Assembly: GCA_027576995.1 (NCBI GenBank)
Contig: JANBQC010000023.1
Location: forward strand, 41,353-105,352
Direction: 5' to 3'
DNA: 64,000 bases
Origin: Dimargaris cristalligena
Taxonomy: Eukaryota; Kickxellomycota; Dimargaritomycetes; Dimargaritales; Dimargaritaceae
Below, in pieces: positions 37,759 to 61,554 of this stretch. Numbering within the stretch: position 1 is the first letter of the stretch; every line of letters begins with the position of its first letter. The notes beneath the pieces were generated by a model, which saw only the letters and a list, made by a program, of their open reading frames with translations, made no database searches and was not told where the DNA came from. Made by a program: the position numbers and the translations under genes.

Positions 37759-40700
37759 TTAGAGGAGGGACAGTTCAAGAAGGCATTCTTTCCAATGGAA
37801 AGCGAAACCACGGATGGTATCGGTTCGGAACTGTTTCGTGTTAAAATTGGCAACGATCTCCAGTCCCTCGGAGGTGTTCCAGGCTCCAAAATCGAGCAAA
37901 AACGGGTACTTGTTTTGACTCTTCGAGGTACGCAAATTGTTAAGCAAGGCGGGTCGCTCAACCAAGAGAGTATCAGTGTCAGAGGATTCTTGGACAGCGA
38001 AATCGTCCAAATACGTGAAGCCAAACTGGGGCTGAATATTAAATTGGGGTTTAAACTGGATTTGATCCTCGGTGAAGGAGCGTAGATTTTTAACTACTGT
38101 ATATAGGAAACCATTATCTACGCCTGTGCTTAGCGTAGCTTGAACAGCACGCAGGGTGTTTGTCAAATCGCCATTGGGTGCGCCCTGTAAAACCAGTGGG
38201 AACTGGCAGGCAAAGAACCCGACAGTCCGAGAGACATCGCACTGGCCACGGGGGTCCTTGCGCCCATGGCCTATATACGCCAAATCCATCTGGGATAGTC
38301 TGAAGTGACGGTGGTAGGCACATACCAGGGTCGTCAAAATAAGTTCAACTGGGGTGGCCCCGAGTTGTTGAGCTACTGTGGCCATGAGGTGGTAGGTGGT
38401 TTTTTGGTCAATCAGGCTGGTCACACGTTCCCGGGTTTCATTGGTAATTGGTGAATTATCCGCAGGCAGCCCTATAGGCAGAGGAACAGCGGTTATGGGC
38501 AGGTCAACACTATTTGGGTCAATGGACTGGGCCAGGGACCAGAGATGATCAGCCCAATCCCTGTACGAAAAGGTCAGGGGCTCGAGGGGCTGTCCATTTA
38601 AGAAGGCCGAAAGGTCTTCCCGAACAATCTGGACGGACAGGTAGTCAAAGACCAGATGGTGGACGGAAATATAGACGTATTGGACACCAGTGACGTCAAA
38701 TACGCGAATCTGGGAGATTGGCCCAATCTCGAAATTAATTTGGTGATTAATGTCGTTGAGCTGGTCCAGTGCATCGCGGATATTCGACAATTGGTGGTAT
38801 TCAAAACAGGTCGACGAAGGGTCGTCCAAATCGGCAAACCTGACGACAGTCTCTCCGTCAATAGACTGGAAGCGGGCCCGGAGCATATCATGGCGTTGAA
38901 CCACCTTGGTCCAGGCGGCCTGCCACTGTTGAGCAGTGAATCGAGTGCGGGACTCAAATAGGGTGGGTAGGGGGAAGAAGTGGGGGTCCGCCAGTTGCAG
39001 AGCGAGTAGTTCTAGTTGGGGCGGGGTGAGTCGTACACTCCGAGCTTCCGAATCAATGGGGCCGTGGACATCCCCATTAAACACTTCGATAGAATCGGGC
39101 GGAGTCGAAGTTAATTGGGCGAGGTAGGAAATCGTGTTGGCCCGGTTGATATCTATCAAGGCCAGTTGCAAGTTCTGGCGACGACAGCGGGATACCAATT
39201 GGATGGCCGACAGGGAGTTACCACCGACTTGGAAAAAGGTAGCTGCTGGTGAGATACCATTTGGATCAATCCGAAGAGTCTCAGCAATCAAACCGATGAA
39301 CCGGGCTTCGGCTGGGCTAACCTGCTCGGTCTCGTGGTTACCACTACTAATGGCAAAGTTATGCTTGGGCAGGGCCTTGCGGTCAACTTTACCCACCCGA
39401 GTCAGTGGCAATTTGGTTAGTTCCACGAGGACAGATGGTATCATGTAATGGGGCAGTCGAGATCGCAGAGAGTCCAAAATAACATCGGTCTGACCAGAAG
39501 GGGGAACAATGTAGCCGACCAGGTGGTTGTCATCTTGGACAACAGTGCAGGCCTGGTCCACGGCGGGATGGAGTTCCAGGGCACTTTCGACCTCCCCTAG
39601 TTCAATCCGGAACCCCCGCAATTTGACTTGATTATCAATCCGGCCGAGGCATTCGATTTGGCCATTGGGTAGCCAGCGGGCCAAGTCCCCAGACTGGTAA
39701 ATGCGCTCACCAGTGAACGGACTCAAAATAAATTTGTCCTGGGTAAGTTCAGGACGATTGAGGTAGCCACGGGCCACACCGCGGCCGCCTAAGTAGAGCT
39801 GCCCTACGGCACCAACAGGGACTGGGCGCAAATGGGAATCGAGAATAATGCCAGTGGCATTGGGTAGCGGAGCACCGATGGGAATCGTTTCATGGTTGGC
39901 CTGGAGCCGAGTCCAGTGTGATCCACACGCCACTTCGGTGGGACCGTACCAGTTGAAGAGGTCAACGTAGTCGGCCCATTTGTTCACTATCCCCCGGTTA
40001 ACCGGCTCACCGGTGATAGTAACTTGGCGTAAGTTAGTGAAATTAGTCGGATCGAAGCTGGAGAGAAGGGAGGGGGTGCAGCAGGCTCGAGTGGCCTGCG
40101 CAAGGGCATCTTCGTATTCCCCTTGGGCTACCAAGAGGGTACCACCGAAGGACAAAGTGGACCATATCTCGGACAAAGATACGTCAAAAGTGGGCGTAAC
40201 AAGGGTGGGAGTAATGGTACCAGGGGCCATCTTAGTAATACTGCCCATACCCTGGCAGTGGTTGGCTAAAGCGTGGTGTTCGTGCATAACGCCCTTGGGG
40301 GTACCCGTTGAACCCGATGTGTAGATGATTGCTGCCAAATGGGAGGGGTCAATAGGTGGTGATATGTACGCGCTGGTGGGGCCATCAGCAAGTAGCGCAG
40401 TAATGTTAAACGGTATTGTAGGGATATTCGATTCAAGGCCTCCTAGAACGGAGAGACTGGAGGGTTTGCCCATAATGGCGATGGCTTGCGTGTCTTCCAA
40501 AATCAACCGGTGACGTTCAAGGGGGTAGTCGGGGGCCAGAATCGCAAACGCACAGCCGGTCTTCCAAATGGCCAGTTGTCCTATAATGAGTTCTGGGCAG
40601 TTGTCAGCGACCAGGGCTACTATCTGGTCGGAGCCACAGGGTGCTTTCAGGGCCAGCGAGTGGGCCAGCCGATTGGCAGCCGTATCCAGCTGAGCGTAAG

Positions 40701-48200: not shown

Positions 48201-51200
48201 GAATGGCAGAGAGCTTGGACTGGTCCGTCATATTGGTAAGAACCCGGCTTATGCCGCAGTCTTCTATGATATACTGGATACGCTCGATAGGGAAGGCGGG
48301 GTCCAGGGGAACTAAAACCGCCCCCGACAACTGTAAGCCCATAAAGGCTGCAATTGTGCTGGGTACCCGTTCAATGAGCAGGCCAATGGGTGTTTCACGC
48401 GGGACGCCCTGGTCTAGTAGTCGCTGAGCTAGATTGAGTGACTGGCTATGTAAATACGCATAGGTCCACTGAGTATCCTCGTGCTCCACGGCAATAACGT
48501 CCGGTCTGATCTGAGCCGATTGAGTAAACAAGTCCGGCACACAAGCACTATGATCAATGGCCAGACGGGGGCATGCAAATTGCTCAGCTACTACAGCCTG
48601 CTCGTTTGGCGAAAGCATGATTAGGTCTTGTACGCGGGGTTGACCATCAGAGTCGGACAAAGCGGAGACCAGCCCTTTGAATAGGGTACAGAAGTGCTGG
48701 GCCAGGGTGTCGATATAGGTAGAGTCAAATTGGAAAGAATTCCAGCTCAAACTAGCGTGAAGTTCGCCATGCTTCATTTGGACCACCAGTGATAGGGGAT
48801 AGTCTGTAGACTCAAGACATTCGGTATCTGTAAAAGTAACCGGGTGATCCCGGTTTTTTGACCCTGTATCAGGGTAACTCTCGTACACAACCAGCGTATT
48901 AAACAGGTCGCTTGGCTGAATATCCCCTTCGACCCATGCGTTAATCTCGGATATATGGTGGTGTTCATATGAAACAACTTGTTGAGAGCTATGATGAATA
49001 GCAGCGACCCATTGAGCCACGGACATGGTCTCATCAGCTTGAACCCGAAATGGGACGGTGTTGATAAGACATCCCAGGTGGGACTCGATGTCGGCGAGGG
49101 GCAGTGCTCGGCCGGATACGGTGTTGCCGAAAATGACGTCGAGCTGACCAGTGTAACGGCTCAAGAGAAGGGCCCAGGCGGCCTTGATAATGACGTAAGG
49201 AGTAAAGCCCATACGGTGGGCGAGTTGAGTGATAGTGTCGGCATTCTTGAATAATACCATTTGCAATTCGGCCCTAGGGGAGTTTGGCTTGCGGCTGGGC
49301 TTGGGGAGTTCCAATTCGGTGGGCTGTTCGACCCCTCGCAGGTACTCCGACCAGAACGATTTCGCACTTTGTTTGTCCGAGCTTCGTAGATGAGCCACAT
49401 AATTACGGAATACAGGGGGTTGGGCAAGCAAGGTTTCAGCGTCATTTTGAAGATGGGCCCGAAGCCGGCCAATTAGGATGCCAATAGACCACCCATCAAT
49501 AAGTGCATGATGGATGGCTAGTAGGTAGCGGAATGAGTTTGATGATAGTTGTTTAACATGGACTCGGAGAAGAGGTTCGCTGGGGCCGAAACCACGCTGC
49601 TTGTTCGACTGCATGAAATCAGACTCACTAATTGAGTCCACGTCGGACCACCCGTTAAGAACTTGCCAGCCGAATCGTGGTTCTTGGGTCACCACTTGGA
49701 CACCCTGGCACCGGGAGTTACTCCAAGTAGTTACAAATACAGTACGTAAAATGGTGTAGTCACTCACAACTGCTTGGGTGGATGTTTGGAGCTGGTCGAT
49801 GCTCGAAATACCAGTTACCGTAAAGGCCAGTTGGACCAGGTATTCGGAAGGGTCCTTGGCCGTGGCTGTCCACATGCCCTGCTGCATGGGCAGCATGGGG
49901 TAGAGGTCTTCGACATCATTCGCGGAAAGACCTACGGTGACCAGCTCAGCCTCGAGTTTAGCCAGTTCAGGTAAAGTGGTGTGTAGGCCAGTAAAGTCCG
50001 ATGGGGTCCAAACACTGGGGGTAGGGGACACGTCCAGAAGTTGCACCATATTTGAAAGCGAGACACGGAAGTAGTCCAGCAGAGTCTCAACCACATCTGT
50101 TGCAATGACTTGTGGGCAGTACATAATCATGAATTTAAGTCCACCCGGAGTTGGCAATCCGATAACCTCCAACACCTGTGTACGAAGTTCACCGGGGTCA
50201 CAGACGGGAAGTTCCGAAACCAGTTCCGGGCGAACTACCCAAGGGGCTCGGCCGTGCATAGACAAGGCCCCGTCATTTGTCGTGTGACCCAGGTGGTTAA
50301 AACAGACCTCCATCGGTGAGAATGACTGTCCATTAGAGGACCCACCTTGGGGACGGCGAAGAACCTGTTGAAGACCATGCTGTAAACCGTAAGTCCCAGT
50401 TAAAGATCGGAGGGCCTGTTTGGCCTGCTTGAGGAAATCTAGTGTGTTCGTTTCACTACTCACCTGGGCTTGGCAGGGAGTCATAGAAGTGAACCAGCCG
50501 ACGGTGCGACCGGGATCGAGACTGGGTTGCCACGGATGACGACCGTGGGATTCATTGAAAATGGTGATGGTCGGGGCCTGAGAGATATAGTTCAGGGCCT
50601 GGAATAGACCAGCGAGCATCAGCTCCAGAGGTTGAATATGTGTAGTATCAGGTTGCAAAAGGGCACCCGACAGGACGGGATCCAATGTGATTGATTGGCA
50701 CTGGGTGTTAGCCTGGGTGTTCAATCTCAGGCAGTCCGGTCCGGTGAGGGGTAAAAACGATACCGGTGGAGTATTTGTCTCGGGGTCACTTTCAGTCTCA
50801 GGCATGGTCTGCTTGGCCCAGTTGGCCAACTCCGTGGCCCAGGTGGCAAACGAAAGGGGCTGGGGCACGGGTGATTGGCCGTCTAGGAGTCTAGCCAAAT
50901 CCTCGAGTAAAATCGACCAGGAAACTAAATCCACTACCAGATGGTGGATGGTCAGGAATAGCAATTGACTCTTAAATGGCTGAGAAGTATTGACAGAGCA
51001 AGATACCTTAGATGTCCGTGTGTTACTACCGTCGTCCGAAAAAGTGATCAGACCTGCTGCCAAGTGATGCCCTTTAGTGATATCAAGCGATGCCTGAATT
51101 TCTAGAAGTTGTTTGGACAGATCAGAGGCTGACGTGCTAAGCTCCACAATCGGAATAGGCAATTCAACGAAAGGTGAAACTATTTGTTGGGACCATTGGC

Positions 51201-54200
51201 CTGGATGGCCAGTCGGTGCCCGGGTGAATTGACAGCGCAACATGTTGTGGACGTTAATTAGTCGGAGCAAGGCTGGGGTGAGTTCAGTAGCCGTCAATGG
51301 CCGGGTCAGTTCGAGGGCAAATGACTGGTTAAAATGATTTGGGTTGGACCAAGGGTGGTCAAAGAACCACTGCTGAATCGGGGTAAGTGGGAATTTCATG
51401 TGGTATTCCACGGGCTGAAATTGGTTGGCTATGGCACTTGCCGACGAAATTAGGGACATTTTCTTAATGACATCGCGTAAGGGTCCGGATCCCAGTAGAG
51501 CGGAGGTGGGCAAAGTAAACCCGAGTTGGCGACACTTGGACGAGACCTGGATGGCCGAAATGGAGTCACCCCCAATCTTCACAAACGTCAGATCCGGATT
51601 AACTTGATTGAGTGGAAGACCGAGCACCTCTCCCAGGGACTGCATCAATATGCTTAGTGGCCGATCCCCTTCAGATGACCTGTCTAATAGCGAGGCTTGC
51701 TGTCGATGGGTGGCTAAATGGTCAGCAAAGTGATTCTGGAGGAAATGGGTATCACATTTGCCATTGTTGGTAAGAGGGACGTTAGGAAGACCAATGATAT
51801 AACTGGGTACCATATAGGATGGCAGCTGGTCGGCAACAGAAGCACGCAATATATCCTCACTGGCAGTAGAATCCGGGAACACGTAGCCGACCAAGAACTG
51901 GTCATGGACAAAAACAGCGCAGTCCTGGACCCCAGATTGGCGCATCAAGACATTGCGAATCTCATCCAGCTCGATACGGAACCCCCGCAGTTTCACCTGG
52001 CTGTCCATGCGCCCCAAGCACACTACTTGGCCATCGGGTAGCCAGCGGCCCAGATCACCAGTCCGGTAGATTTTGCCTTGCCCTGTGAATGAATTATCGA
52101 CAAATTTAATTGGATTGAGGTCCGGTCGATTGATGTAACCGAGGGCGACTCCGACACCTCCAATGCATATCTCACCGACGGCACCAATCGGAACCAAATG
52201 TAGGTTTTCATCCAAAATGTAACACTCGTAGTTGGCCATTGGTCGGCCGATTGGAACACTTCCAGAAGGCGGAACCTCAGTCATAAGGCAGGCGATGGTG
52301 GCTTCGGTCGGTCCGTAGACATTGTAAAACGTGGTCGCTGCTGACCATTGATTTGCCAATTCCCGGGGTAAATGCTCGCCGCCAACCAGCAAGCCGTTCA
52401 GGTTGGTATAGTCCTGGGGATTCAGGGTAGAGATGATGGACGGAAGCAGAATGGCCTGCTGCACTGTTTTCAATGTGCCCGGAAGATCATCGCTGTAGAA
52501 TACCAGAGTAGAGCCGTAGCATAAGGGAAGCAAGGTGTTCAGGAAAAATACATCGAACCCAGCTGCCATGCCGTTCATGGTTCGGGTGCCTGGCTGTTGC
52601 AGCATCTCGAGGGTAGGACTGGTGAGCATATTCAAAAGGCTGCGATGTTCGACCATGACACCCTTGGGGTGACCGGTGGAGCCCGAGGTGAATACAATGT
52701 AGGCCAGGTCTGTTGGTGGAATTGGGTGGAGGGAGGATACTGTGGTGGTAGACTCGACACTTTTGGCAAGGTCGTCAATGTTGATTACTTCGCACCACTC
52801 TGCATCCGCTCCTGATGCATTCACCACACATGTGCACCCCGCCGTGTCGACAATGTACTTTTGCCGGGCAGTCGGGAGCTTGTGATCCACCGGTACATAG
52901 ACGGCCCCGATACCCCAAACGGCCAGCATGCACATAACCGCATCTGGGTGATTGGCCACGATAACACCCACCTTGTCGCGTGGTTGTACAGTAGCACATT
53001 GGAGCCGCTCGACCAGCCCAAAAACTCGCTGAGATAGTTGAGTGTAGGTGTAGATAACATTGGAAATTTCAGTGGCTACTCGATTGGGGTATTTTTGAAC
53101 CATATCCAAGAATAAGTCTAGAACACTTAGGTGGGGGTTTTCCCGTGTAACCGAATTAGGAGGCCCGAGTGCGAACTTGTCCCGGATGATGCTGGTCTCA
53201 GTTGGACACACCAGTGATGCCGTGGACCACGGCTGGTGGGTGACCACTACCGATTGAGCATATGATAGGAAATTGTGAATTAAGCGGTTCGCCGTGTCAA
53301 CGTTGAAGAGACTCTGGTTAAATCTCAGCTGACACATAGGTGCATGGTCATGGTAGTCAATAACCAGCAGTAAGTCGTAAGGGAACATCGTCCGGGGCAA
53401 TCGGGACCTGGTACAATAAGCTGCAGTAGAATTGTCCCCGGGTCTGAGCGGATAGTGGAATGCAACTGATATACGAGATAGGGCGGAAATTCTGTACTGG
53501 CCTTCGAGAGACAAGTGGGAGATAAGAACATCCATCGAAGGTAAAACGTGAAGCCGGGAGTCTCTGATCTGGTCAGTTAGTTGTCCGACTATTTCGGGGA
53601 AATCTAACGACAGGTCCCCCTTTACTCGAAGAGGTTGTTCCAGTGCCGACAGGGCTTTCATACCCGTCGAAGTATCGCCATTCTCAACAGTGGGACCACT
53701 TAAGTTCATAATCAAATCAGTTTGCCCCGTCAGGCGCAACAAGAATGTCGCAAATAGAGACGACCAGATCGCGTATTCCTTAACCGACTCATTCGCAGCC
53801 TGTACCTGAATCGTTTCGAACAATTGCTCCTCAACTCCAGTTTCGGCCAAGCTGCAAAAGAAGGAGGGCAAAAGGGGGCGAGGTTGGTCAGTTGGAAGAG
53901 CCAGTTCAGCCGGTGGGTTCTGAAGAAGAGTGGCCCAATAGTTGAGGTCTACTTTAGTAGGCTCGCTAGTATTACAAGTTCTCGTGAATCTGATATCGGT
54001 TAGACTGGGTGAATGTCCAGCCAATTGATTGGTGAGAGCATGTACGATTTCATCAAATTCACTAGTGGACCCGAAGATTTCGTGGACCCGAATTACAATC
54101 GCCGAAGAACTACTGTAAGCTGTAACAGCCGGTAGCTGATACAAGTCAAGTTGGGCCAGTACACCTTGATTCAAATCAAATTGAGGCGCATCCTCGTCGA

Positions 54201-57200
54201 ACTGGCCGTTATCGAATGCTTGAGAACCGGTAAGTTTGTGCTCAATCACTCCAATTGACACTCGTGGTAAAATGTGGCAGGTGAGAGTACCTCGAACCGA
54301 TAAAAACCGACAGCGAAGGGATTCAAATACGGTAATTAGGTGGTCGATTGCCCGGTGGACCTCCTCCAGTTGAAGTGAGGCCTTAGAAGTGACCGTACAA
54401 TGGTGATAGAAGACGGATGGCGGACTGTCCAATTGACTGAGGCACCAGACTCGCTGTTGATGGCAAGTGACTGACTTTGTGCGGGTATACAAAGGCGATA
54501 TCCCCAGAGAGGCGATACCGGTACCTTCGATGGTGAAATCGGGGGACTCCTCATCCACGCCTTGTTTGATAATTCCCTTGATGGTGGAGGCCAAAATACG
54601 AATCTCGGTGTGTTTGACCAATTCGCCCAAACCGATGGCAATGCCAAATTTCTGGTGAATGTGATACTGAAGAAGGCCCAGTTGGGCCAAAGGAATCCTT
54701 GATGTGGACATAAGCAGTGTGGTATTACTACTACTGGCTGAAGAATGATTAGTGGATATATACAGCTCATTCACCACTACCATCAACCACCATTCATATT
54801 CTGATAGGGACTGGGCTGAATGAGCTGGACGTGTGGCTAAATATGCTTGGGCAAAGTGCGGGAGAAGTTGGTCATCGAGTTCAGCTACATGTGGGAATGT
54901 ACTGGTCGAGATTATTTCATCGGGCACGAGAGCGGCTGGAATGGCGGGTGGAACCATGGTAGACTTTAGCCTTATTAAGTCCGCTTCAGTAGAATTGGAA
55001 ACCAGGGCCGCTAGCTGGCCATCAGATAAGACTAGGCAACGTGGTGATTGGGCACCGGCCTCTACTAGAGCCTGCACTAGAGTGCCGAGGTGGACCTGTC
55101 GGTGCTTAATGGTCACTCGCTGGCTGGCCGGGCCCAGAACATGGACAAAGTCGGCGCTATCGCGATAGCCAAGTACGGATTGCTTAGGAGAAGTCTTGAA
55201 ATCTGGAAACGAAGAGCCCAAGAAAGCCAGCCGACCAACCACTCCAGGAGGACAGGGTTGGCCAAGTCTACCCAACACATCCAAGAGGTAGCCACCATTG
55301 GGTGGTTTGTCAATAGCAGGTAGAGAGCGGGAAACTAGTTGCTCAGATGTAACATGGCGGTGGCCATGGAAGATGGATTCGATAAAAGCCAGGCAGGTGT
55401 CGGTTTCTTTGACTAAACTTTCGACACAAGGCCAGGTGTCCTCGTTTAAGTCCCAGAGAATAAGGCGGCCACCCACAGCCGCATCACGCGTTGGTGAATC
55501 GATGGCCACTACATGACAAGGTGGAGACTTGCAATTCTCATACATTGGCAAATCAGGTGTCGTAATAGTTACCTGAGAGGTTAGACATGACAGACTAAGC
55601 CAGATGGTCTGCGGGCTGTCCAGGACCAAGGAATCATCCAAAATATACTGCCCCTTACTATCGATGAAGGACCGGGTTGAAGCAAGAATGTGCTGGATGT
55701 CCGGACTATCAATACTCAATACCACCGGATCAGCCAAATTACTGCGGGATGCAAACACCAAGGAGGGATCATGTAAGTCAACCAGCTGCTTAAATCGATG
55801 AGTGGCTCGAGTTTCGGTAATTTTCTGATTAATCGAATCCGGTATACCAACCATTGCAATATCACAATCCAGATAAGGGCGTACATGCTCAATACCAGTG
55901 GATGGTAGCCACACTATTTGCACACCAATGGTTTTAGAACACGTTGATAATTGTTCAGTGGTATAGGGTGATGCTAGAGGTAGGAGTCGAGCCCCCAGTT
56001 TGATCGCACTCACGAGACAGACCAGCAAATGTTCGATCCTATCTACTACAGCCAGGACTGTTGGGTGGGGGGCTAAACCAGACTGACTGGATTGAACAGC
56101 GAGGGAATCAGCCAATTGGTCAAGCTGACTGTATGATAGGCTATGCGTGGTTGAAATATAGACTAGGTGATCCGAGTTGTCCCGCAAAGAGCCGGTCCAG
56201 ATGTCATTTAGTAGCGGTGGTGCGGGATCAACCATAGAGCCTCTCGTCTCTTGGTCAAAGTGAAGGAGGCGGCTCGACGGAGGATTTGCAAGTGCAAGTT
56301 GGTCCATGGGTGAGTTCATATCCACCGCTAGGATCTGCATGAGAACAAACTGGACCATATCGATTAACTGACCGATGGATCCTTCGGAGTAGATGGATGT
56401 ATCGTAGAATACCTTTGCCTTGATACCATTAGAACTATCGATAAAGTCAATAGCCAACGGGTATTCCGTAAATTCATCCGCGCGTAGGTCAGATAAAACC
56501 AGGCTGTGTGCCGGATCGGCCACAAGTTCCGGGAAATTTTCGAACCCCATAATGGTTTGGAATAGTGGTCCGGAATGGTCGGTGGAAGCCCACTTAGTAA
56601 TGTCAGTTAGGACTGAGTGTTCAAACGGGATCATGGCTATCTGGCCTTGGTGGAGGGTCTGCAACCAGTCCACAATTAAATGATGGTCCAGGCGCACCCG
56701 GGAGGGTAAGGTATTCGTACAAGGTCCAATCGTCCGGTCGATTCCGGGTAGGCTCAGGTTGCGTCCAGACAGAGTCACACCGAACACCACTTCGTCTTGA
56801 TCGAGCAGATAACCCAGCACCAGGGCATAGGCGGCCCGGAATAAAGTGGCCAAAGTGACCCCAAATCTCTGCGAACATTGGGTTAACTGGGCCTTGGAAA
56901 GGTCGACACTGGCTAGATAAGAGACCCAACCCGATGACCCAGTGTAGTCGGGGGAGAGTAGAGGGGCAGGGGTCTTTGGTGCATCGGTCAGATAGTCGCT
57001 CCAGAAGGTTTGAGCTGACTCCGGATTGAGCTGAATGACGTACTGAATAACGGACGAAAAGGGGGCCAATGGAGAGCTCACCTCCAGGCTGGGATGGTGA
57101 TAGGCTGCCATCCACGCCTGGAATAAAAGAGGCAACGACCACCCATCGCACAGTGAATGGTGGAAGGTAATAACGACATCATACACCTGGCTGTCAACGG

Positions 57201-60200
57201 TAGGGAACACAAAATTACGAATCATATGTTCCTGCATTGTAAAACCCCGCTGGCGGTTCTGGATTAGGAATTCGTCAAGGGATTTTAAGGGTTGGTCGGA
57301 GACAGTCCAGGCGGTGGGGCACGACCGAAGAACGGCCTGAATATACCCTTGAGACTGTTTCGATGACGACGCGAGAAATACAGTGCGCAGGGCGGTGTGC
57401 TGCTGGGCAACCGCCTGCCAGGCCTGGAGCAGCCGATTAGTATTAAGCGGTCCGCTGAATTTGACGGCGAGCTGCACTAGATAAGCGGTAGCGTCAGTGG
57501 ATAGTCCTGTCAATAGACCACCCTGGAGAGCAATACAGGGAAACAGGTCCTCCACCTGATCCAATGGAATACGACGATGGCGAAATTCGTCAATAATATC
57601 CTGGAATTCGGAAGCGGAAAGTTGGAGGTGGGTAAAGTCATATCGCGTGAGGAGCGGCTCCACACCAATGGATCCCGACTGGTCCATGCAATTGGCGAGC
57701 TGGGCAAGACTCTGGCGCCACTGGCCCATTATTTCATCGACGATGCTTCGTCGATAAACCAACGGATTGTACTCCATGATCAGGCGCAGGCAGTCACCGA
57801 CCACCGTGGGCATGGGATTGATATCATAAATAACCTTGTCCTGAGGGGCAAAGTCATGTAGACCAAAGTAGTCCGACCATTCAATGGATAATATATCATC
57901 GCTTTGGTCACCGCCGGTATTGTTGAAACGACCAAAGTAGTTAAACTGTACATCTAGGCGAGTCGGGGTCTGGGCCTCCAACTTGGCCCGCTCTTCCATG
58001 GAAACCCCTGGCATGTAATTCAACAGGGAATAGGGAAACCCCTTCATTGGAATTTGCTGCAGTGTTTCCTTGGTGTGGCGTAACAGGTCCAGTATGGACT
58101 GACCAGACCGAACCCGAAGAACGAGGGGGTAGAGGGCGGTAAACCAGCCCACGGTTCGGGTAATGTCTTGATCAGATAACCACGGCTCACGGCCGTGTCC
58201 CTCCATGCAAAAAGTAACCTGGTCGAGCCCAATGGCAGTGGCAAAGGCCTGGGTGAAAGTAGCCAGAAGCAAGTCGCGTGGAGTGACGCGTAGCTGTGGG
58301 GCCAATTGAAACAATAGTGAGTGCGTGGATTCAGAGTCGAATTCGAAAGACGTGGAGAGACGGGCAGCCTGAGTACAAGTAGCACCCAATTCAGGCTGTG
58401 GAAGGAGGGCCCGGATATCGGGAGTGAGCCGGCCAGAGTCTACTTGGGTGGGCCATATATCCGCCGACAGAGCTGCTGCATAATTATCGAGCTGGGAAGC
58501 CCAGACTTGGAAAGGCAATGTCTTCGGCGGAAGTGAGGCACCTCGGAGCAGGGTATTCAAATCCTCAATCAGAATTCGCCAGGCAACCAGGTCCACCAAG
58601 ATGTGGTGGATGGTGATGAATAAGCGGGGCGGGGAGGTACTGTCCGGGTCGTGGATCAGGGCAACTGCCAACACAGGTCCCGTAGTAAGATTAAGGCTGG
58701 ATTGGACCCGCAGGATAAAGTCGGCATAGTTTTCGGACGAAACCATCTCTTCCAAAACCAGAAAGTCAGTGGGGACGGCTCTAGTTGTAGGTATCGTCTG
58801 GACCCATGACTGACTGTCCTCATTGGGACAAAATCGGGCCCGGAGAATATCGTGATGGTTGGCCAGGGCCACTAAGGCGTCATAAATGGCCGTCAATGAC
58901 AAATTGGCCTTGTAATTGACCTTCAGGGTAAAGGACTGGTTAAAGTGGTGGGGGTTACAAAGACCAATTTCACTAAACCAACATTGGATAGGCGTCAAAG
59001 CCACCTCGCCTTGGACTTGTTCCTGGTAGGCGGCGTTCACATTAGCTTGCCGGCTAGTAGTCTTTTCAGTGTGCTGGGCCAACTGTCGGAGCTCGGGGTA
59101 CTGGTAGATTAATGGCACGGTTAGTTGATATCCCAACTGTTGGCCTTTGGACACCAGCAGAATCGCCGAAATAGAGTCACCGCCGATTCGAAAAAAGTGG
59201 TCAGTGGTGCTGATGCGATCGGGGTCCAACTGTAGAATCTGACCCCAGACCCGGCGAAGTTCTTCTTCTATATCAGTTTGAGGGGCGTTAATTTCAGATC
59301 TAGTAGTGGACGACAGTGCATGGCTGGCCAATAAGTGATCAACGGAGGGCAGCGACCTACGGTCCAGTTTGCCCGAAGCAGTGTAGATAAAGTCCGCTAC
59401 CGGCACCACGAACTCGGGTATCATTTGTTTAGGGAGCCGATCCCTTAGACAGCTCAATAAGCCGGCCGAATCAATGTTTGCGGGACTGGCATAAATGACC
59501 AAGGTTTCCTGAACCACGGCCACTGCGCATTGTTTAAGTCCGGGGAATTGAATCGCCACATTCTCAACCTCCTCAACCTCGATCCGGTACCCTCGTAACT
59601 TGACTTGGTTGTCGATACGACCGATATACTCGACCGTTCCATTCGGGAGCCAGCGAACGTAATCACCGGTGCGGTATACGCGACCCGGTCCATGGGGGTT
59701 CGGAATAAACCTAGCTGCAGTCAGCTCCGGTAGGTTTTGGTAGCCCCGACTCACTCCCGCCCCGCCAATGAGTATCTCACCGGGAGCCCCGACGGGCACT
59801 AGTTGAAGATCCTCGTCCACGATGAGATTGAAAACGTTGCGGGTAGGCTTACCAACATTGATATCATCATCTGGGCCAATCAAGGCTAGGTTGGAGTAGA
59901 CGGTGGTTTCTGTCGGCCCATAATGGTTGGCTATGTAGCAGTGAGGGGTCCAGCGGGTGTGGTGTTCCGGTAGCAGGGATTCTCCACCGACCCCAAATAC
60001 CTTCATTTCCGGAGCGTCGTGGGGATGCAAGCGAGACAGGAATGACGTCATGAGATACCCCGTATGAGCATGCTTCAGGTCCTCCAGCAGATTGTCCGAT
60101 GAGACCACGATAGTACCGCCGGTGCAAAGGGACCGGAGGGTATTCACAAGCACGCCGTCAAAGGCAATCGACCCAGTTTGAAGGGCGCGGCGGCCCAGGC

Positions 60201-61554
60201 CATAGGTATCCCCTAAACATGGATCAGAGGCTATGTTGGCTATGCCGCGGTGTTCGAGCAAGACGCCCTTGGGGCGGCCCGTCGTACCCGAGGTATAGAT
60301 GACGTTGGCCAAATCGCTGGGGGATGATTGGAAGGACTGGAAGTCGGATGGATCCGTAAATACCGGCTTCTGGGCGAACGGGTCAATGATCACAGTAGGT
60401 AGCGTAGTCTGACCGGTCAGTTTTCCGAGTACTGATTCAGCCACGATTAACATTGCTGCGTCACTGTCCGTCAGGATATACTGAATTCGGTCGATTGGGT
60501 AGTCGGGGTCGAGGGGTACGTAGGCGGCCCCCGATTTGAGGACAGCCACAATGGCCACATTATAGGCAATCGACTTAGGGACGAGTAGGGCGACTCGGAC
60601 CTCGGGACAGGACCCGTATTGATCAACTAGAATGCGGGCCAGCTCCGAACTGGCGTAGTCCAGTTGGGCATAGGTCCACTCTTCGCCGCCGCGGACTAAG
60701 GCAATATGGCCAGGAAAGCGTTGGGCACAGTCGCTGAATTGGCATTGGAAAGGCCGGTAGTCCCCTTGGGTTGGTTTGGCCATTTGGGAGAACTCCAACA
60801 GGCGGGCATGTTCCCGGTCGCTAACCCACGAAATATCGCGCACAAGGTTAGACTGACCACTTGCCAATGTTTGGGCAACGGCTGAAAAGACAGTTACGAA
60901 CTGACTGGTGAACTCTGCTACGGCTGAATTACGATACTGAGCCCGGGCGTAGGTAATCGTGACCTGGACATGCACCTGGTTATGGGTGCAACTAACCGCC
61001 AAATGGGCGTTACTTCGGGCTAGTAGATGGACGATCTTCGGGTCTGCCTCGGCCTCCTTGGGCTGACTGTGACTATCGTCGATTTCGGACCAAGGAGTGG
61101 TCACGCTGGTGCTATCCTCGTCAGTGTGGAGCACAACTTCGACCATTGGGCCCAACGAGTCAGGAATACCACCGGGGGCGGGCTTTTGCAGGAGGGCAGC
61201 GGAACAAAGGGCATCGGGGCTCACCTGCGCCAGAACCAATTCAGGCTTTTCCAGAGGTTGGTCCATGATATCACCTGGTCCGAACTGGCCCGACCAGTGG
61301 GCAAAAGCGACTGCAGGCTGGCGGTAGTACCGACTTAGGATAATGGCAGTGGTCAACTGAACCCCTTGTTTGAACTGGTCTTGACGCAGTAGTTCCTTTA
61401 AATAGGGGCAGGAAACACCATAGCACCAGGAAGCATTGCCCGATAGGTTGGAGCGGGGCTTGCCGAGGGGTAGGCTGAAGGTCGGTTGGTAGTCTGCGGG
61501 GACTACGGGCAAGTGAATGCGGGGGGAATTGGGGGTAAAAGTAGAGCCGAACAT
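37759..61554 (-). CDS. Giant multimodular non-ribosomal peptide synthetase (7931 residues, one exon)
   Basis: One uninterrupted 23.8-kb frame from the ATG at 61554 to the stop at 37759. Order, by motifs: half C (1-250), A1, T1, E1, C2, degenerate A2*-T2*-C3*, A3, T3, E3, C4, A4, T4, C5, A5, T5, E5, C6, A6, T6, E6*. Five A domains have intact YTSGT/STG-x-PKG, YGPTE, YR/YQ-x-GD and GK-x-D/DR motifs. Five carriers have the phosphopantetheine Ser (Ser794, 3331, 4862, 5925, 7447). C2, C4 and C6 carry HHxxxDGWS; C5 has HHALLDAWS. The enzyme should activate five amino acids in the cytosol and join them, needing a phosphopantetheinyl transferase. There is no thioesterase, reductase or terminal C domain of usual kind. 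No intron in nearly 24 kb, while neighbours are intron-rich, and the repeated E-C (D-to-L) couplings hint at a bacterial origin; this is inference. Upstream stops at 61555-61640 support the chosen start. Confidence 0.95.
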   Translation of the reverse strand: MFGSTFTPNSPRIHLPVVPADYQPTFSLPLGKPRSNLSGNASWCYGVSCPYLKELLRQDQFKQGVQLTTAIILSRYYRQPAVAFAHWSGQFGPGDIMDQPLEKPELVLAQVSPDALCSAALLQKPAPGGIPDSLGPMVEVVLHTDEDSTSVTTPWSEIDDSHSQPKEAEADPKIVHLLARSNAHLAVSCTHNQVHVQVTITYARAQYRNSAVAEFTSQFVTVFSAVAQTLASGQSNLVRDISWVSDREHARLLEFSQMAKPTQGDYRPFQCQFSDCAQRFPGHIALVRGGEEWTYAQLDYASSELARILVDQYGSCPEVRVALLVPKSIAYNVAIVAVLKSGAAYVPLDPDYPIDRIQYILTDSDAAMLIVAESVLGKLTGQTTLPTVIIDPFAQKPVFTDPSDFQSFQSSPSDLANVIYTSGTTGRPKGVLLEHRGIANIASDPCLGDTYGLGRRALQTGSIAFDGVLVNTLRSLCTGGTIVVSSDNLLEDLKHAHTGYLMTSFLSRLHPHDAPEMKVFGVGGESLLPEHHTRWTPHCYIANHYGPTETTVYSNLALIGPDDDINVGKPTRNVFNLIVDEDLQLVPVGAPGEILIGGAGVSRGYQNLPELTAARFIPNPHGPGRVYRTGDYVRWLPNGTVEYIGRIDNQVKLRGYRIEVEEVENVAIQFPGLKQCAVAVVQETLVIYASPANIDSAGLLSCLRDRLPKQMIPEFVVPVADFIYTASGKLDRRSLPSVDHLLASHALSSTTRSEINAPQTDIEEELRRVWGQILQLDPDRISTTDHFFRIGGDSISAILLVSKGQQLGYQLTVPLIYQYPELRQLAQHTEKTTSRQANVNAAYQEQVQGEVALTPIQCWFSEIGLCNPHHFNQSFTLKVNYKANLSLTAIYDALVALANHHDILRARFCPNEDSQSWVQTIPTTRAVPTDFLVLEEMVSSENYADFILRVQSSLNLTTGPVLAVALIHDPDSTSPPRLFITIHHILVDLVAWRILIEDLNTLLRGASLPPKTLPFQVWASQLDNYAAALSADIWPTQVDSGRLTPDIRALLPQPELGATCTQAARLSTSFEFDSESTHSLLFQLAPQLRVTPRDLLLATFTQAFATAIGLDQVTFCMEGHGREPWLSDQDITRTVGWFTALYPLVLRVRSGQSILDLLRHTKETLQQIPMKGFPYSLLNYMPGVSMEERAKLEAQTPTRLDVQFNYFGRFNNTGGDQSDDILSIEWSDYFGLHDFAPQDKVIYDINPMPTVVGDCLRLIMEYNPLVYRRSIVDEIMGQWRQSLAQLANCMDQSGSIGVEPLLTRYDFTHLQLSASEFQDIIDEFRHRRIPLDQVEDLFPCIALQGGLLTGLSTDATAYLVQLAVKFSGPLNTNRLLQAWQAVAQQHTALRTVFLASSSKQSQGYIQAVLRSCPTAWTVSDQPLKSLDEFLIQNRQRGFTMQEHMIRNFVFPTVDSQVYDVVITFHHSLCDGWSLPLLFQAWMAAYHHPSLEVSSPLAPFSSVIQYVIQLNPESAQTFWSDYLTDAPKTPAPLLSPDYTGSSGWVSYLASVDLSKAQLTQCSQRFGVTLATLFRAAYALVLGYLLDQDEVVFGVTLSGRNLSLPGIDRTIGPCTNTLPSRVRLDHHLIVDWLQTLHQGQIAMIPFEHSVLTDITKWASTDHSGPLFQTIMGFENFPELVADPAHSLVLSDLRADEFTEYPLAIDFIDSSNGIKAKVFYDTSIYSEGSIGQLIDMVQFVLMQILAVDMNSPMDQLALANPPSSRLLHFDQETRGSMVDPAPPLLNDIWTGSLRDNSDHLVYISTTHSLSYSQLDQLADSLAVQSSQSGLAPHPTVLAVVDRIEHLLVCLVSAIKLGARLLPLASPYTTEQLSTCSKTIGVQIVWLPSTGIEHVRPYLDCDIAMVGIPDSINQKITETRATHRFKQLVDLHDPSLVFASRSNLADPVVLSIDSPDIQHILASTRSFIDSKGQYILDDSLVLDSPQTIWLSLSCLTSQVTITTPDLPMYENCKSPPCHVVAIDSPTRDAAVGGRLILWDLNEDTWPCVESLVKETDTCLAFIESIFHGHRHVTSEQLVSRSLPAIDKPPNGGYLLDVLGRLGQPCPPGVVGRLAFLGSSFPDFKTSPKQSVLGYRDSADFVHVLGPASQRVTIKHRQVHLGTLVQALVEAGAQSPRCLVLSDGQLAALVSNSTEADLIRLKSTMVPPAIPAALVPDEIISTSTFPHVAELDDQLLPHFAQAYLATRPAHSAQSLSEYEWWLMVVVNELYISTNHSSASSSNTTLLMSTSRIPLAQLGLLQYHIHQKFGIAIGLGELVKHTEIRILASTIKGIIKQGVDEESPDFTIEGTGIASLGISPLYTRTKSVTCHQQRVWCLSQLDSPPSVFYHHCTVTSKASLQLEEVHRAIDHLITVFESLRCRFLSVRGTLTCHILPRVSIGVIEHKLTGSQAFDNGQFDEDAPQFDLNQGVLAQLDLYQLPAVTAYSSSSAIVIRVHEIFGSTSEFDEIVHALTNQLAGHSPSLTDIRFTRTCNTSEPTKVDLNYWATLLQNPPAELALPTDQPRPLLPSFFCSLAETGVEEQLFETIQVQAANESVKEYAIWSSLFATFLLRLTGQTDLIMNLSGPTVENGDTSTGMKALSALEQPLRVKGDLSLDFPEIVGQLTDQIRDSRLHVLPSMDVLISHLSLEGQYRISALSRISVAFHYPLRPGDNSTAAYCTRSRLPRTMFPYDLLLVIDYHDHAPMCQLRFNQSLFNVDTANRLIHNFLSYAQSVVVTHQPWSTASLVCPTETSIIRDKFALGPPNSVTRENPHLSVLDLFLDMVQKYPNRVATEISNVIYTYTQLSQRVFGLVERLQCATVQPRDKVGVIVANHPDAVMCMLAVWGIGAVYVPVDHKLPTARQKYIVDTAGCTCVVNASGADAEWCEVINIDDLAKSVESTTTVSSLHPIPPTDLAYIVFTSGSTGHPKGVMVEHRSLLNMLTSPTLEMLQQPGTRTMNGMAAGFDVFFLNTLLPLCYGSTLVFYSDDLPGTLKTVQQAILLPSIISTLNPQDYTNLNGLLVGGEHLPRELANQWSAATTFYNVYGPTEATIACLMTEVPPSGSVPIGRPMANYECYILDENLHLVPIGAVGEICIGGVGVALGYINRPDLNPIKFVDNSFTGQGKIYRTGDLGRWLPDGQVVCLGRMDSQVKLRGFRIELDEIRNVLMRQSGVQDCAVFVHDQFLVGYVFPDSTASEDILRASVADQLPSYMVPSYIIGLPNVPLTNNGKCDTHFLQNHFADHLATHRQQASLLDRSSEGDRPLSILMQSLGEVLGLPLNQVNPDLTFVKIGGDSISAIQVSSKCRQLGFTLPTSALLGSGPLRDVIKKMSLISSASAIANQFQPVEYHMKFPLTPIQQWFFDHPWSNPNHFNQSFALELTRPLTATELTPALLRLINVHNMLRCQFTRAPTGHPGQWSQQIVSPFVELPIPIVELSTSASDLSKQLLEIQASLDITKGHHLAAGLITFSDDGSNTRTSKVSCSVNTSQPFKSQLLFLTIHHLVVDLVSWSILLEDLARLLDGQSPVPQPLSFATWATELANWAKQTMPETESDPETNTPPVSFLPLTGPDCLRLNTQANTQCQSITLDPVLSGALLQPDTTHIQPLELMLAGLFQALNYISQAPTITIFNESHGRHPWQPSLDPGRTVGWFTSMTPCQAQVSSETNTLDFLKQAKQALRSLTGTYGLQHGLQQVLRRPQGGSSNGQSFSPMEVCFNHLGHTTNDGALSMHGRAPWVVRPELVSELPVCDPGELRTQVLEVIGLPTPGGLKFMIMYCPQVIATDVVETLLDYFRVSLSNMVQLLDVSPTPSVWTPSDFTGLHTTLPELAKLEAELVTVGLSANDVEDLYPMLPMQQGMWTATAKDPSEYLVQLAFTVTGISSIDQLQTSTQAVVSDYTILRTVFVTTWSNSRCQGVQVVTQEPRFGWQVLNGWSDVDSISESDFMQSNKQRGFGPSEPLLRVHVKQLSSNSFRYLLAIHHALIDGWSIGILIGRLRAHLQNDAETLLAQPPVFRNYVAHLRSSDKQSAKSFWSEYLRGVEQPTELELPKPSRKPNSPRAELQMVLFKNADTITQLAHRMGFTPYVIIKAAWALLLSRYTGQLDVIFGNTVSGRALPLADIESHLGCLINTVPFRVQADETMSVAQWVAAIHHSSQQVVSYEHHHISEINAWVEGDIQPSDLFNTLVVYESYPDTGSKNRDHPVTFTDTECLESTDYPLSLVVQMKHGELHASLSWNSFQFDSTYIDTLAQHFCTLFKGLVSALSDSDGQPRVQDLIMLSPNEQAVVAEQFACPRLAIDHSACVPDLFTQSAQIRPDVIAVEHEDTQWTYAYLHSQSLNLAQRLLDQGVPRETPIGLLIERVPSTIAAFMGLQLSGAVLVPLDPAFPIERIQYIIEDCGISRVLTNMTDQSKLSAIRLALAQVEIQPIDPWLMPLQLPQDKLPALPHIRTSDLSYIVYTSGTTGRPKGVQIEHRLMGNFVQQLESTYGIYTGQRLMQNMALTFDAALLEIFTGLCKGATLVLRTDLLDTLPNVEAIFATPTVLASLDPAKYPRLQTIISGGEALPREVAERWARHCRLFNIYGPTEVLVSHAVEYSLGDTLTIGRPIPNTQGYILDRYLRPVPIGVRGEIYVGGVQVTRGYVNLPDLNTVRLIHNSFSGSGNMYRTGDSARWLPNGTVEYFSRHDDQVKIRGHRIEPQEIESVLLSHPDIQSAAVVIVSRSIYAFVCPGSVSIGSVKSHIGRILPAYMNPNSIFSIDVLPRNTNGKTDKHVLASQIVDLTSMDAGRTVTAPQNLAQARVVEALSQTLNIPSDEIDIYDSFFQLGGDSISAILFSSLCRDRGLYISIAQVFKCCNIIGLAECASDHSTSDRPLETHSPTHYEPYSLLDEKDHPSSALESLLQKAASQLNLNLDNITDILPVSGLQLGFLVSTLKDPSSYMVQQSFAISGDLDMNRFQKAWEQLAEHHGILRTKFFQPGSLSVHSFLQVITKQCDIEWSINADVVYDWSTLENTYFETDRQRGFTFDGPLFRMALFTPPGTGNSRHLCFFTFHHALLDAWSQNIVLAQLVDLYHGTAPTPSAQYSSYIAHLQSTDQSQLQQFWQTTLEKVQPTPPIHFPVYTTESPMCNYGIHHTTLSINLASLHAVCRQQSITLNSLLRGVWALVLSRYLGESKEVSFGVLTSGRNVPVSGVQDMVGMCINTLPFRVPLDLSTSVTNFVQQLHRQSGELTASEQCGLHNIYKWGQISPDTKLFDSLMTYDYFPPSKSKAPNPNITFELRDGQNFTEYAYTISFFDNGDNLDCHMVYDKSHCDDSYAYHLIRFIDHCLSVMVNNPSLSLGELMSLPTDEAQLVEKWAQGPVRKFPQRHWLAYQLFSQHVSSRPDSIALETSNRQFTYHEVYHQSCCIAMTLQQRGFQPGNLAALIFTKSADFIFSYLGVLMAGGVCVPMDANNAIDRLQYTYELLDDPWLLSTAPHFEHIRDYISVADHQRLLADTLEYSKINTDLFRPDNSRSSSDLAYIVFTSGTTGRPKGIPVRHESLVNFTLANCETIQLDSDCRFLQLLNVTFDGCLIEIFSAFHCGGTLVLQDGSLLDTLARVNSCFLVPSMLSAIDIESYPNLKLVIVGGEQTPLNVAHHWCEYVQLINGYGPTEATILSHTDHIQSNEPLSIGRSLANTQGYILDDQLRPVPVGVPGELCIGGVGVSSGYWKQPDLTARAFVPNPFGPGLLYRSGDLVCWLSSGKVQYISRKDFQVKLRGYRIELGEIENTASSVEGVTNAIACVTQQQLVLYITPGSVDTVGLRSQLVAKLPQYMVPNFIITLDCIPMTTVGKADRKVLQAWPLPEDTIDEAIIIESGSSTFLLMREALADTLKIDPKRITPSVSFLRLGGDSISAIQFSNRCKRLGLQLSVADILKHTQLSAMEQRVHLVGSNNLPATQFLDPAGMIPLTAVQRYALEEYQFINQFNQSMLLKCRQTLARPSLGQALTALIAHHDILRTRLDRSNGQWKQRVLPVPTDSTTWSKHFLVIEEATLTLKEYPAWASQMQQTISIEHGPTVACGLLTLDGEQFVYMAVHHFTVDFISWRIILEDLEALLTNQDLPTKTTPFREWATQVHAYAQSLSDSIWPVPPTPADPIPLDYPLFQGSGQSTPPEVTYHTFEVQRASLGRALSDTLYSEVAPAVGASPQEFLIASLLLSLQAALGMSVIELELEGHGRRAWDSAIDISRTVGWFTSIYPVVFDLNQTHANLTYSNNLRTLALAKQRMRSIPDHGFPYSLQRYLKDTSPLFAPVIDRTAPNTAGIPTADWNRIVFNYSGRFEQLEARDAFWRPHHVEMGWTDDLNKDELFNRALSVACDYSVNEGLVLSVMYSNELHRASTIQRVADLWRTFLEELILECKKNPVPSIVTASDFASAKLTDSDFSTLVHDDLPSLDLVMTDVEDIYPCLPVQEGLLFATLQDPAAYMVQLGFTIKGQLNVGRFHQAWENTAQNHTILRTRFLTASGCDANKNLQVVAKNFNAHWIIRSWEKACVDTMRDQFFQQERTIGFTPHRPWIRFGLFRTTSDSFKLLVSVHHALIDGWSIGLLLHSVCSHYTGDELPKAIHYRDFVDHVGCQDNGVAEQFWTNQFSGVEEPSLLVQAHHHPTFPNLQPSDAAFYGTVEKSMPILKQINRLISDHGVTLSSLLRVAMAVVLNHHIGSTDPIFGVVVSGRNVPVEGVETIIGACINTIPCRVALGSNPSVRDILQAVYATSTQAHGFEHCRLTDIHRWSGINQERQLFNTLLVLENYPETPANPNHPFQMELDSYWDPTDFPLAFIAHAQGDRLQFRVSYRTLDFSPEFINSFADHFIAALSSLVSVDASSPLTSIQILTLAEREQLLSSWATNPHDTPRVLAHDLFKQQCENAPRLTALTYNGQHYTYAQLDTAANRLAHSLALKAPCGSDQIVALVADNCPELIIGQLAIWKTGCAFAILAPDYPLERHRLILEDTQAIAIMGKPSSLSVLGGLESNIPTIPFNITALLADGPTSAYISPPIDPSHLAAIIYTSGSTGTPKGVMHEHHALANHCQGMGSITKMAPGTITPTLVTPTFDVSLSEIWSTLSFGGTLLVAQGEYEDALAQATRACCTPSLLSSFDPTNFTNLRQVTITGEPVNRGIVNKWADYVDLFNWYGPTEVACGSHWTRLQANHETIPIGAPLPNATGIILDSHLRPVPVGAVGQLYLGGRGVARGYLNRPELTQDKFILSPFTGERIYQSGDLARWLPNGQIECLGRIDNQVKLRGFRIELGEVESALELHPAVDQACTVVQDDNHLVGYIVPPSGQTDVILDSLRSRLPHYMIPSVLVELTKLPLTRVGKVDRKALPKHNFAISSGNHETEQVSPAEARFIGLIAETLRIDPNGISPAATFFQVGGNSLSAIQLVSRCRRQNLQLALIDINRANTISYLAQLTSTPPDSIEVFNGDVHGPIDSEARSVRLTPPQLELLALQLADPHFFPLPTLFESRTRFTAQQWQAAWTKVVQRHDMLRARFQSIDGETVVRFADLDDPSSTCFEYHQLSNIRDALDQLNDINHQINFEIGPISQIRVFDVTGVQYVYISVHHLVFDYLSVQIVREDLSAFLNGQPLEPLTFSYRDWADHLWSLAQSIDPNSVDLPITAVPLPIGLPADNSPITNETRERVTSLIDQKTTYHLMATVAQQLGATPVELILTTLVCAYHRHFRLSQMDLAYIGHGRKDPRGQCDVSRTVGFFACQFPLVLQGAPNGDLTNTLRAVQATLSTGVDNGFLYTVVKNLRSFTEDQIQFKPQFNIQPQFGFTYLDDFAVQESSDTDTLLVERPALLNNLRTSKSQNKYPFLLDFGAWNTSEGLEIVANFNTKQFRTDTIRGFAFHWKECLLELSLL
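42260..46770 (-). other. NRPS module 5: C5-A5-T5-E5
   Basis: C5 (about 4929-5372) has HHALLDAWS, with Ala in place of Gly after the Asp, and follows a module with no E domain. A5 (about 5402-5876) has VFTSGTTGRPKG, YGPTEATI, YRSGD and VGKADRK; by-eye code D-G-I-F-I-G-G-I-L. T5 has Ser5925. E5 (about 5976-6432) has HHFTVDFISW, EGHGRRAW and RTVGWFT. A D residue is expected. Confidence 0.8.
46860..49945 (-). other. NRPS module 4: C4-A4-T4
   Basis: C4 (about 3871-4306) has HHALIDGWS. A4 (about 4339-4816) has VYTSGTTGRPKG, YGPTEVLV, YRTGD and NGKTD; by-eye code D-A-L-F-I-G-I-V-S. T4 has Ser4862 in LGGDSIS. This is the only complete module without an E domain, so its residue should stay L. Confidence 0.8.
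50030..53130 (-). other. NRPS module 3: A3-T3-E3
   Basis: A3 (about 2809-3279) has VFTSGSTGHPKG, YGPTEATI, YRTGD and NGKCD. By-eye code: D-V-L-I-L-G-V-I-A, which looks hydrophobic. T3 has Ser3331. E3 (about 3386-3839) has HHLVVDLVSW and RTVGWFT. The Glu motif reads ESHGR rather than EGHGR, keeping the catalytic Glu. A D residue is expected. Confidence 0.8.
53240..56270 (-). other. NRPS fossil block: degenerate A2*-T2*-C3*
   Basis: About residues 1764-2772. Alignment by eye still shows the A-domain outline (LSYSQLDQLADSLA, SAIKLGARLLPL, YRDSAD in place of YRTGD), but the YTSG-x-TG-PKG loop, YGPTE and the GKxDR lysine are gone. T2* (about 2266-2327) reads IPLAQLGLLQ where LGG-x-S should stand, so it has no attachment Ser. 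C3* (about 2346-2772) starts like a C domain (SVTCHQQRVWCLSQLD), but HHxxxDG is replaced by RVHEIFGSTSEF. All three lack catalysis, yet the frame is open over 3 kb. Confidence 0.82.
56290..57650 (-). other. NRPS condensation domain C2
   Basis: About residues 1302-1755. The catalytic motif is HHSLCDGWS (57138-57166) and the domain directly follows E1, as in D-to-L type C domains. Its natural partner in order, A2*-T2*, is degenerate, so it probably serves A3-T3. Confidence 0.8.
57680..60770 (-). other. NRPS module 1: A1-T1-E1
   Basis: A1 spans about residues 266-739, with the phosphate loop YTSGTTGRPKG near 60260-60300 and SGKLDRR at its end. By-eye specificity residues (GrsA positions 235, 236, 239, 278, 299, 301, 322, 330, 331) are D-G-V-Y-G-G-H-V-Y; I do not assign a substrate. 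T1 has GGDSIS with Ser794. E1 (about 849-1289) has HHILVDLVAW, EGHGREPW and RTVGWFT, so it should be an active epimerase and the first residue should be D. Confidence 0.8.
60780..61554 (-). other. NRPS N-terminal half condensation domain
   Basis: Residues 1 to about 255. The segment around LTTAIILSRYYRQ matches the C-terminal lobe of C domains (the place of the usual AWALLLSRYTGQ-like helix), and the end matches the region before an A domain. The N-terminal lobe with HHxxxDG is absent, so this is a truncated starter C domain, unlikely to be catalytic. Confidence 0.6.

Follow-up and report, generated by a model that had tools for sequence, protein, structure and literature searches.

A motif-less adenylation-carrier-condensation block under purifying selection in a nonribosomal peptide synthetase family of Dimargaris cristalligena

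The DNA analyzed here, a stretch of 64,000 nucleotides from Dimargaris cristalligena (the window), carries on its minus strand an uninterrupted frame of 7931 codons (37759–61554) encoding a nonribosomal peptide synthetase (NRPS). Residues 1762–2771 of this enzyme (53242–56271, minus strand, as are all NRPS features below) form a block, A2*-T2*-C3*, in which the catalytic motifs of an adenylation (A), a carrier (T) and a condensation (C) domain have been lost, and which is under purifying selection in Dimargaris. The block is flanked by a live condensation domain, C2 (56290–57522; HHSLCDG at residue 1465, 57142–57162), and by a live adenylation domain, A3 (51745–53187), which starts at approximately residue 2790 and adjoins C3*. 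The initial annotation had described a complete A-T-C module without catalytic motifs, kept in frame without a stop over 3 kb; Pfam matches, profile comparisons and motif counts agree with this description, and the frame is open throughout the block. We consider it probable that the block is an ancient pseudo-module, formed once, that is bypassed during synthesis and kept as a folded, non-catalytic scaffold, most likely because C3* partners A3.

Domain identity and lost motifs

The relaxed-threshold profile searches that had been proposed for the block recovered two of its domains. The Pfam family Condensation matched most of C3* (53242–54507), with 69.0 bits when the 1010-residue block was searched and 73 bits when its C part was searched by itself (cut-off 30.6), and AMP-binding matched with 32.9 bits (cut-off 29.9), confined to an initial 92-residue stretch of A2* (54865–56217). 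PP-binding had no match in the block at a limit of E 10, with filters removing most matches above approximately 0.1. The live domains flanking the block had normal Pfam scores. When compared with profiles of the live domains of the family, A2* was matched over 423 columns (97.8%) and C3* over 381 columns (97.6%); T2* (54520–54807) was matched to live T domains over 26 columns only, at 60% probability. T2* is therefore the least certain of the three assignments, resting on its place between A* and C* and on a divergent relative (C10, described below), in which the corresponding stretch has GGQA in the place of the GGDS of live T domains. As the block is kept in 14 other frames, chance resemblance is excluded, and with parts homologous, in this order, to A, T and C domains, the block is a degenerate A-T-C module.

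Motifs were compared in 16 genes, comprising the window gene, 14 full-length paralogues and C10. The strings TSG[ST]TG, YGPTE and Y[RQ][ST]GD occur in none of the 16 blocks. In the A3 domains of the same genes, which served as control, the phosphate-loop (P-loop) string was present in 16 of 16, YGPTE in 14 (with a one-letter variant in C304 and C305) and the A7 string in 12 (off-consensus in C184, C304, C305 and C18). The A10 lysine was found in A3 of all 15 genes covered, and T3 reads GGDS in 14 of the 15 genes covered, with GGHS in C18. Profile alignment of the window block, with the register as read by us, places the former P-loop at approximately ASRSNLADP (within FASRSNLADP, 55726–55755), the former YGPTE at approximately CLAFI (within CLAFIESIF, 55369–55395) and the former A10 lysine region, seen also in the family alignment, at FPHVAELDD (54871–54897). 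In the latter region F, P, H and V are each common to at least 13 of the 15 family members. Stray NGK strings were seen in two of the 16 blocks (C584 and C305), not at the A10 position.

The putative carrier T2* contains the conserved stretch EWWL.VVVNE (54763–54795) and the stretch STSRIPLAQL (54679–54708), the latter without GGxS. Aligned by eye, the T* region has no GGxS in any of the 15 family members; C305 has one serine alignable to the carrier serine, without a preceding GGx, and the string GGNS of the C205 block is located in C*. At the former HHxxxDG site of C3* the window gene reads VHEIFGST (54064–54087), Glu having replaced the second His. Across the aligned site, H-H is replaced by H-[E/D] in all 16 genes (Glu in 12, Asp in four). 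All 16 retain the first His, and eight retain the Asp of HHxxxDG, which the window gene and its close relatives lack; an HHxxxD string in the C8 block is located in A*. Judged as a canonical A-T-C module, the block thus lacks the A core motifs, the carrier serine and HHxxxDG alike. The HHxxxDG motif of C2 is intact in 13 of 13 genes covered.

Selection and descent

Four gene pairs at synonymous divergence (dS) of 0.48–0.60 were used to estimate the ratio of nonsynonymous to synonymous divergence (dN/dS) by counting, with 95% ranges obtained by bootstrap. For the block this ratio was 0.30 in C23/C569 (0.25–0.37; C23 is the window contig) and in C65/C8 (0.25–0.35), and 0.35 in both C23/C333 and C23/C584 (each 0.29–0.42). 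Neutral simulations on the block codons with stops forbidden (6 settings of 40 runs, 240 runs) gave 0.57–1.07, so that neutral decay of the block is rejected. The live domains had values of 0.16–0.18 (C2), 0.10–0.13 (A3) and 0.22–0.28 (E3); constraint on the block is nearly that on a live epimerisation-type (E) domain, and weaker than that on C2 or A3. Fourteen of the 15 pairs tested were usable, with block values of 0.24–0.41, the highest being that of C731, over 192 codons only; the C304/C305 pair was saturated and gave no usable value. In sliding windows across the block dN/dS was 0.24–0.40 everywhere, from which the whole block behaves as coding, and which opposes a spurious frame or hidden introns. 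When seven pairs were pooled, the segment formed by the end of C* and the linker next to A3 was at 0.24, T* at 0.28 and the C-terminal lobe of C* at 0.36, the highest value, with intervals that overlap one another. In an IQ-TREE codon model, a run meant as omega = 1, for which omega was not printed, fitted the block worse, with twice the log-likelihood difference at 241.4 for six genes and 296.4 for four genes. The marks of a pseudogene (dN/dS near 1, stops and frameshifts) are not seen in the block.

The window sits in an assembly of 27.09 Mb in 779 contigs, in which a genome search with the block gave 17 matches. These include the window gene and 14 genes that carry the near-whole block without stops, at 33–73% identity, one of which (C184) was matched over positions 19–848 only in the search but is full-length in the alignment. 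All 15 of these copies are free of stops, and in all 15 family members the block measures 1008–1032 residues over positions 1762–2775. The two remaining matches cover 210 residues in C731 and, with two stops, 217 residues in C39; both belong to loci with stops within NRPS domains, and they are apparent NRPS pseudogenes beside a living family, unlike the open block copies. From 17 stretches fetched, 13 are open end to end (7.7–9.2 kb); the 8.7-kb stretch of C18 stays open over 2607 codons, and those of C731, C131 and C39 are open only in part. In C684, a 5.1-kb locus, all 1715 codons are open. In C131, a small synthetase, no block was seen. C10 was not picked up when the genome was searched with the block, but its T* and C* can be aligned throughout; most of its A* is absent. 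C10 (L031) encodes a divergent NRPS of 8176 codons, with a GC content at third codon positions (GC3) of 0.55–0.70 by domain; its dead block, in which the carrier site reads GGQA and the C site HELVGD, has an intermediate form.

A protein of a second assembly (BJ085DRAFT), P0004, shares 99.9% identity with C8 over 1010 residues. The deposited gene models omit pieces of the block in P0003 (compared with C333) and P0005 (compared with C363), and these skipped pieces are probably mis-called introns. Between C584 and C23, dS differs strongly by domain (C2 1.12, block 0.49, A3 0.40, E3 0.92), and such unequal values within one pair appear to reflect the exchange of segments among paralogues.

Outside D. 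cristalligena, protein searches were assessed for the best 120 of 439 matches, the best 120 of 538 and three of three. Among the matches listed, close relatives of the block come from D. cristalligena only and more distant ones from Tieghemiomyces parasiticus, the two genera belonging to the Dimargaritaceae; the remaining matches listed have approximately 19–33% identity, mostly to parts of the block, and were judged by their identity. A shortened form of the block is present in two proteins of T. parasiticus (P0160 and P0242), each of which is labelled partial. They start with an N-terminal half-C region as in the Dimargaris enzymes (profile match between the two genera 92.9% over 208 columns, vs 6.7% to live C domains), followed directly by a remnant of the C-terminal part of A, then by T*, C* and a live A3, and in P0160 by T3 and further modules. 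Both models are without A1-T1-E1-C2 and without the N-terminal part of A*. At the C* site, aligned by eye, the Tieghemiomyces sequences have neither H nor E.

A tree was built from 40 C-fold domains, namely 18 C* domains (15 family members, C10 and the two Tieghemiomyces proteins) and 22 live C or E domains. The 18 C* domains group in a single clade that excludes all 22 live rows, with support of 100/100. Long-branch warnings apply, among others, to C10, C184 and their joins with the Tieghemiomyces and live rows, and the branching order inside the C* clade is unsure; the C* group is defined also by position and shared motif loss. Given this single clade, the loss of function looks to have occurred once, before the split of Dimargaris and Tieghemiomyces.

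These results support the interpretation of the initial annotation in part. Decay had been placed within one NRPS, whereas the loss appears ancestral, being common to 15 full-length genes, C10 and a second genus. An assembly artefact, named there as a way to refute the finding, is ruled out by the recurrence of the block in 14 other frames and in the BJ085DRAFT proteins. The test that it had proposed, dN/dS below 1, came out in its favor, since values of 0.30–0.35 in paralogue pairs show the block to be kept and not merely tolerated.

Domain setting and possible role

Live A domains of the synthetase are marked by YGPTE at residues 545, 3080, 4617, 5681 and 7203, and live carriers by motifs at residues 791, 3328, 4859, 5922 and 7444, which together indicate five live A-T pairs. 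Upstream of C2 lie the N-terminal half-C-like region (residues 1–250, 60805–61554), A1 (59335–60735; Pfam 225 bits; YGPTE at residue 545), T1 (59071–59265; GGDSISAI at residue 791) and E1 (57682–59016), an epimerisation-type domain of C fold that groups with the other E domains in the tree. Downstream of A3 follow T3 (51505–51702; GGDSISAI) and E3 (50185–51477; HHLVVDL). The half-C-like start, whose profile matches the N-terminus of the Tieghemiomyces proteins, is not recognized by Pfam and is a second non-canonical part of the enzyme. The C-terminus (37759–39342), after the last carrier, is an E-like domain with HHLVFDY; Pfam gave no thioesterase match in the C-terminal 2597 residues and neither a thioesterase nor a reductase match at the C-terminus. 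Elsewhere in the window, a plus-strand frame (35397–36185) encodes NAC and HYPK-type UBA domains, and Pfam matched none of the seven other non-NRPS frames that were scanned (E 0.001).

According to the explanation that we favor, an A-T-C module would have lost its adenylation, carrier and condensation chemistry before the two genera split, and the block would since have multiplied along with its gene in a large NRPS expansion while purifying selection acted on it. As T2* and C3* are dead, assembly would have to pass from T1/E1 through C2 to T3: C2 would join the D-aminoacyl unit carried at T1/E1 to the T3-bound unit, module 2 would add no residue, and the product would be of five residues, not six. 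In NRPSs, C and A domains form a joint platform. C3* would be the N-terminal half of such a platform, on which A3 folds while T3 moves, and removal of the dead C3* would destabilize A3; T2* and the C-terminal part of A2* would make up the remainder of the structural unit, and a large N-terminal part of A2* would be dispensable in some lineages. What ties the block to A3, and not to C2, is that in Tieghemiomyces T*-C* directly precedes A3 without A1-T1-E1-C2. As T*-C* stays before A3 both in the Tieghemiomyces models, which are without module 1 and the start of A*, and in C10, which has lost most of A*, we propose that C3* is kept as the structural partner of A3. By analogy, an A domain that is unstable without its upstream C domain may have a precedent in SidC, of which an A-T construct without the N-terminal C domain was highly unstable, leading its authors to infer a structural role for C (PMC10192304).

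The reach of C2 past the block, suggested by the initial annotation, is plausible in Dimargaris, but cannot be the whole reason for retention, as the Tieghemiomyces models keep T*-C* without C2; the proposed structural spacer is supported indirectly, while prediction of the fold of the whole block was poor. We put forward more tentatively, as a further possible reading, that the block is a module-scale pseudoenzyme: an entire module converted once to a dedicated non-catalytic platform, ruler or docking unit on which a whole synthetase lineage depends, T*-C* being its essential core and acting immediately before A3.

Several observations weigh against a bypassed scaffold partnering A3. The whole-block structure model had a mean predicted local distance difference test (pLDDT) of 45.6 and a predicted template modelling score (pTM) of 0.27. 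Its 50 PDB matches listed were mostly NRPS or adenylate-forming fragments, at a template modelling score (TM) of 0.11–0.16 of the query, too low for the arrangement of domains to be interpreted, the top match of this low-confidence model being a DhbF cross-module fragment (E 6.5e-24). A model of T*-C* was better (pLDDT 58.2, pTM 0.60, with C* more confident than T*), and the 50 of 877 PDB matches listed were C-fold, carrier-condensation (PCP-C) or larger NRPS structures at TM 0.53–0.64 of the query; its alignment included the live C domains of the window, which favors a C fold, and the model is compatible with that fold rather than independent proof of it. The T. parasiticus case consists of two partial gene models from one genome, in which the missing domains could be annotation gaps, and apparent segment exchange leaves the paralogues less independent. 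Residues 1795–1894 of A2*, which are missing in C10 and Tieghemiomyces, are at dN/dS 0.25 in full-length copies; constraint on this start argues that the N-terminal part of A* is not dispensable in every lineage. From the motif variants of C184, C304, C305 and C18, some copies may be losing A3 as well. Block dN/dS is approximately twice that of C2 and three times that of A3, and part of the constraint may be to fold quietly without poisoning the megaenzyme.

These last differences in dN/dS also favor the main rival, in which the block is a passive remnant without a job, kept since a misfolded insert, a stop or a frameshift would kill the downstream modules. The GC3 of the window block is in line with it (0.485 vs 0.541–0.619 in nine live domains), as is the absence of most of A2* from C10 and of its N-terminal part from the two Tieghemiomyces proteins, which suggests that this part is removable. 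Drift with stops forbidden, however, gives ratios well apart from those of the block, a useless insert of 1000 residues should be deletable in frame while 15 members hold 1008–1032 residues, and constraint on T* and on the C*-A3 end is at least as strong as on other segments. We regard a passive remnant under folding constraint as unlikely, although it deserves the most weight among the alternatives.

Two explanations would give the block a function other than that of a scaffold for A3. Dead C3* might dock a tailoring enzyme or a second synthetase, as the glycopeptide X domain does: X domains are inactive C folds with a mutated HHxxxDG that recruit P450s (PMC6565677, PMC8949500), the second His is Glu or Asp in all 16 blocks, and the X-domain structures 4tx3 and 4tx2 are among the T*-C* matches listed, beside many ordinary C domains. 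None of 13 P450 matches in the genome lies on the 18 contigs, all told, that bear the block or a piece or version of it (contigs are short), and the X site reads HRxxxDE vs H[E/D] here; moreover, a whole module is present and not a lone C domain, and the Tieghemiomyces C* has neither H nor E at the site aligned by eye. Such recruitment seems improbable to us. That the block is alive, with C3* still condensing by means of Glu and with T2* or A2* served in trans, is the least credible reading and can be given very little weight. It could appeal to the first His, kept in all 16 genes, and the Asp retained in half of them, to the alignable serine of C305, and to fungal siderophore NRPSs in which modules with a dead A domain are loaded from another A domain (PMC10192304), but GGxS is missing from T* of the 15 members and is GGQA in C10, neither the window gene nor its close relatives have the Asp, Tieghemiomyces no longer has the C* site, and C2 is intact and more constrained.

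The bypassed scaffold remains our preferred explanation, and the clear selection on a dead unit suggests a structural job. Domain counting predicts one residue per module. A selected dead module breaks this rule predictably, and in an early-diverging fungus with an expanded gene family it would lead predictions of the products astray. For NRPS engineering, the family is a natural experiment on the shares of catalysis and architecture in a module, as its fifteen full-length and three shortened variants show which residues survive without catalytic selection and which parts can be lost.

Comparison with known systems

The NRPS expansion in D. cristalligena is already known, as are degenerate A domains and inactive C (X) domains. 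The single-cell genome was described as having 27 NRPS genes with modular synteny (PMC6784888), and 21 NRPS and 7 NRPS-like genes were predicted elsewhere (PMC7466969); in the main text of PMC6784888 the words degenerate, inactive, condensation and pseudogene are absent. A literature search, in sources available partly in excerpt and with most subscription journals outside its scope, found no account of a whole dead module conserved over a gene family.

One close likeness is with fungal siderophore NRPSs (S. pombe Sib1, SidD/Nps6), whose degenerate A domains (dA) likewise lost core motifs inside a working synthetase; the dA of SidD/Nps6 is without approximately 290 N-terminal residues, similar to C10 and Tieghemiomyces here (PMC2644324, PMC10192304). 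These synthetases differ in that the adjacent T domain (T2 of SidD) is loaded by another A domain, whereas here A, T and C are all without catalytic motifs, so that no module would be left to serve. The glycopeptide X domain shares the C fold, the mutated HHxxxDG and a role other than condensation (PMC6565677, PMC8949500), but it is one domain, placed in the final module, and recruits P450s, in contrast to an internal full module with a different site. Bacterial NRPSs with skipped domains resemble the proposed route in that assembly bypasses domains (PMC8949500); there, the domains belong to one pathway, whereas here a whole module appears to be passed over, with a shared, seemingly ancestral loss, throughout a gene family and in two genera.

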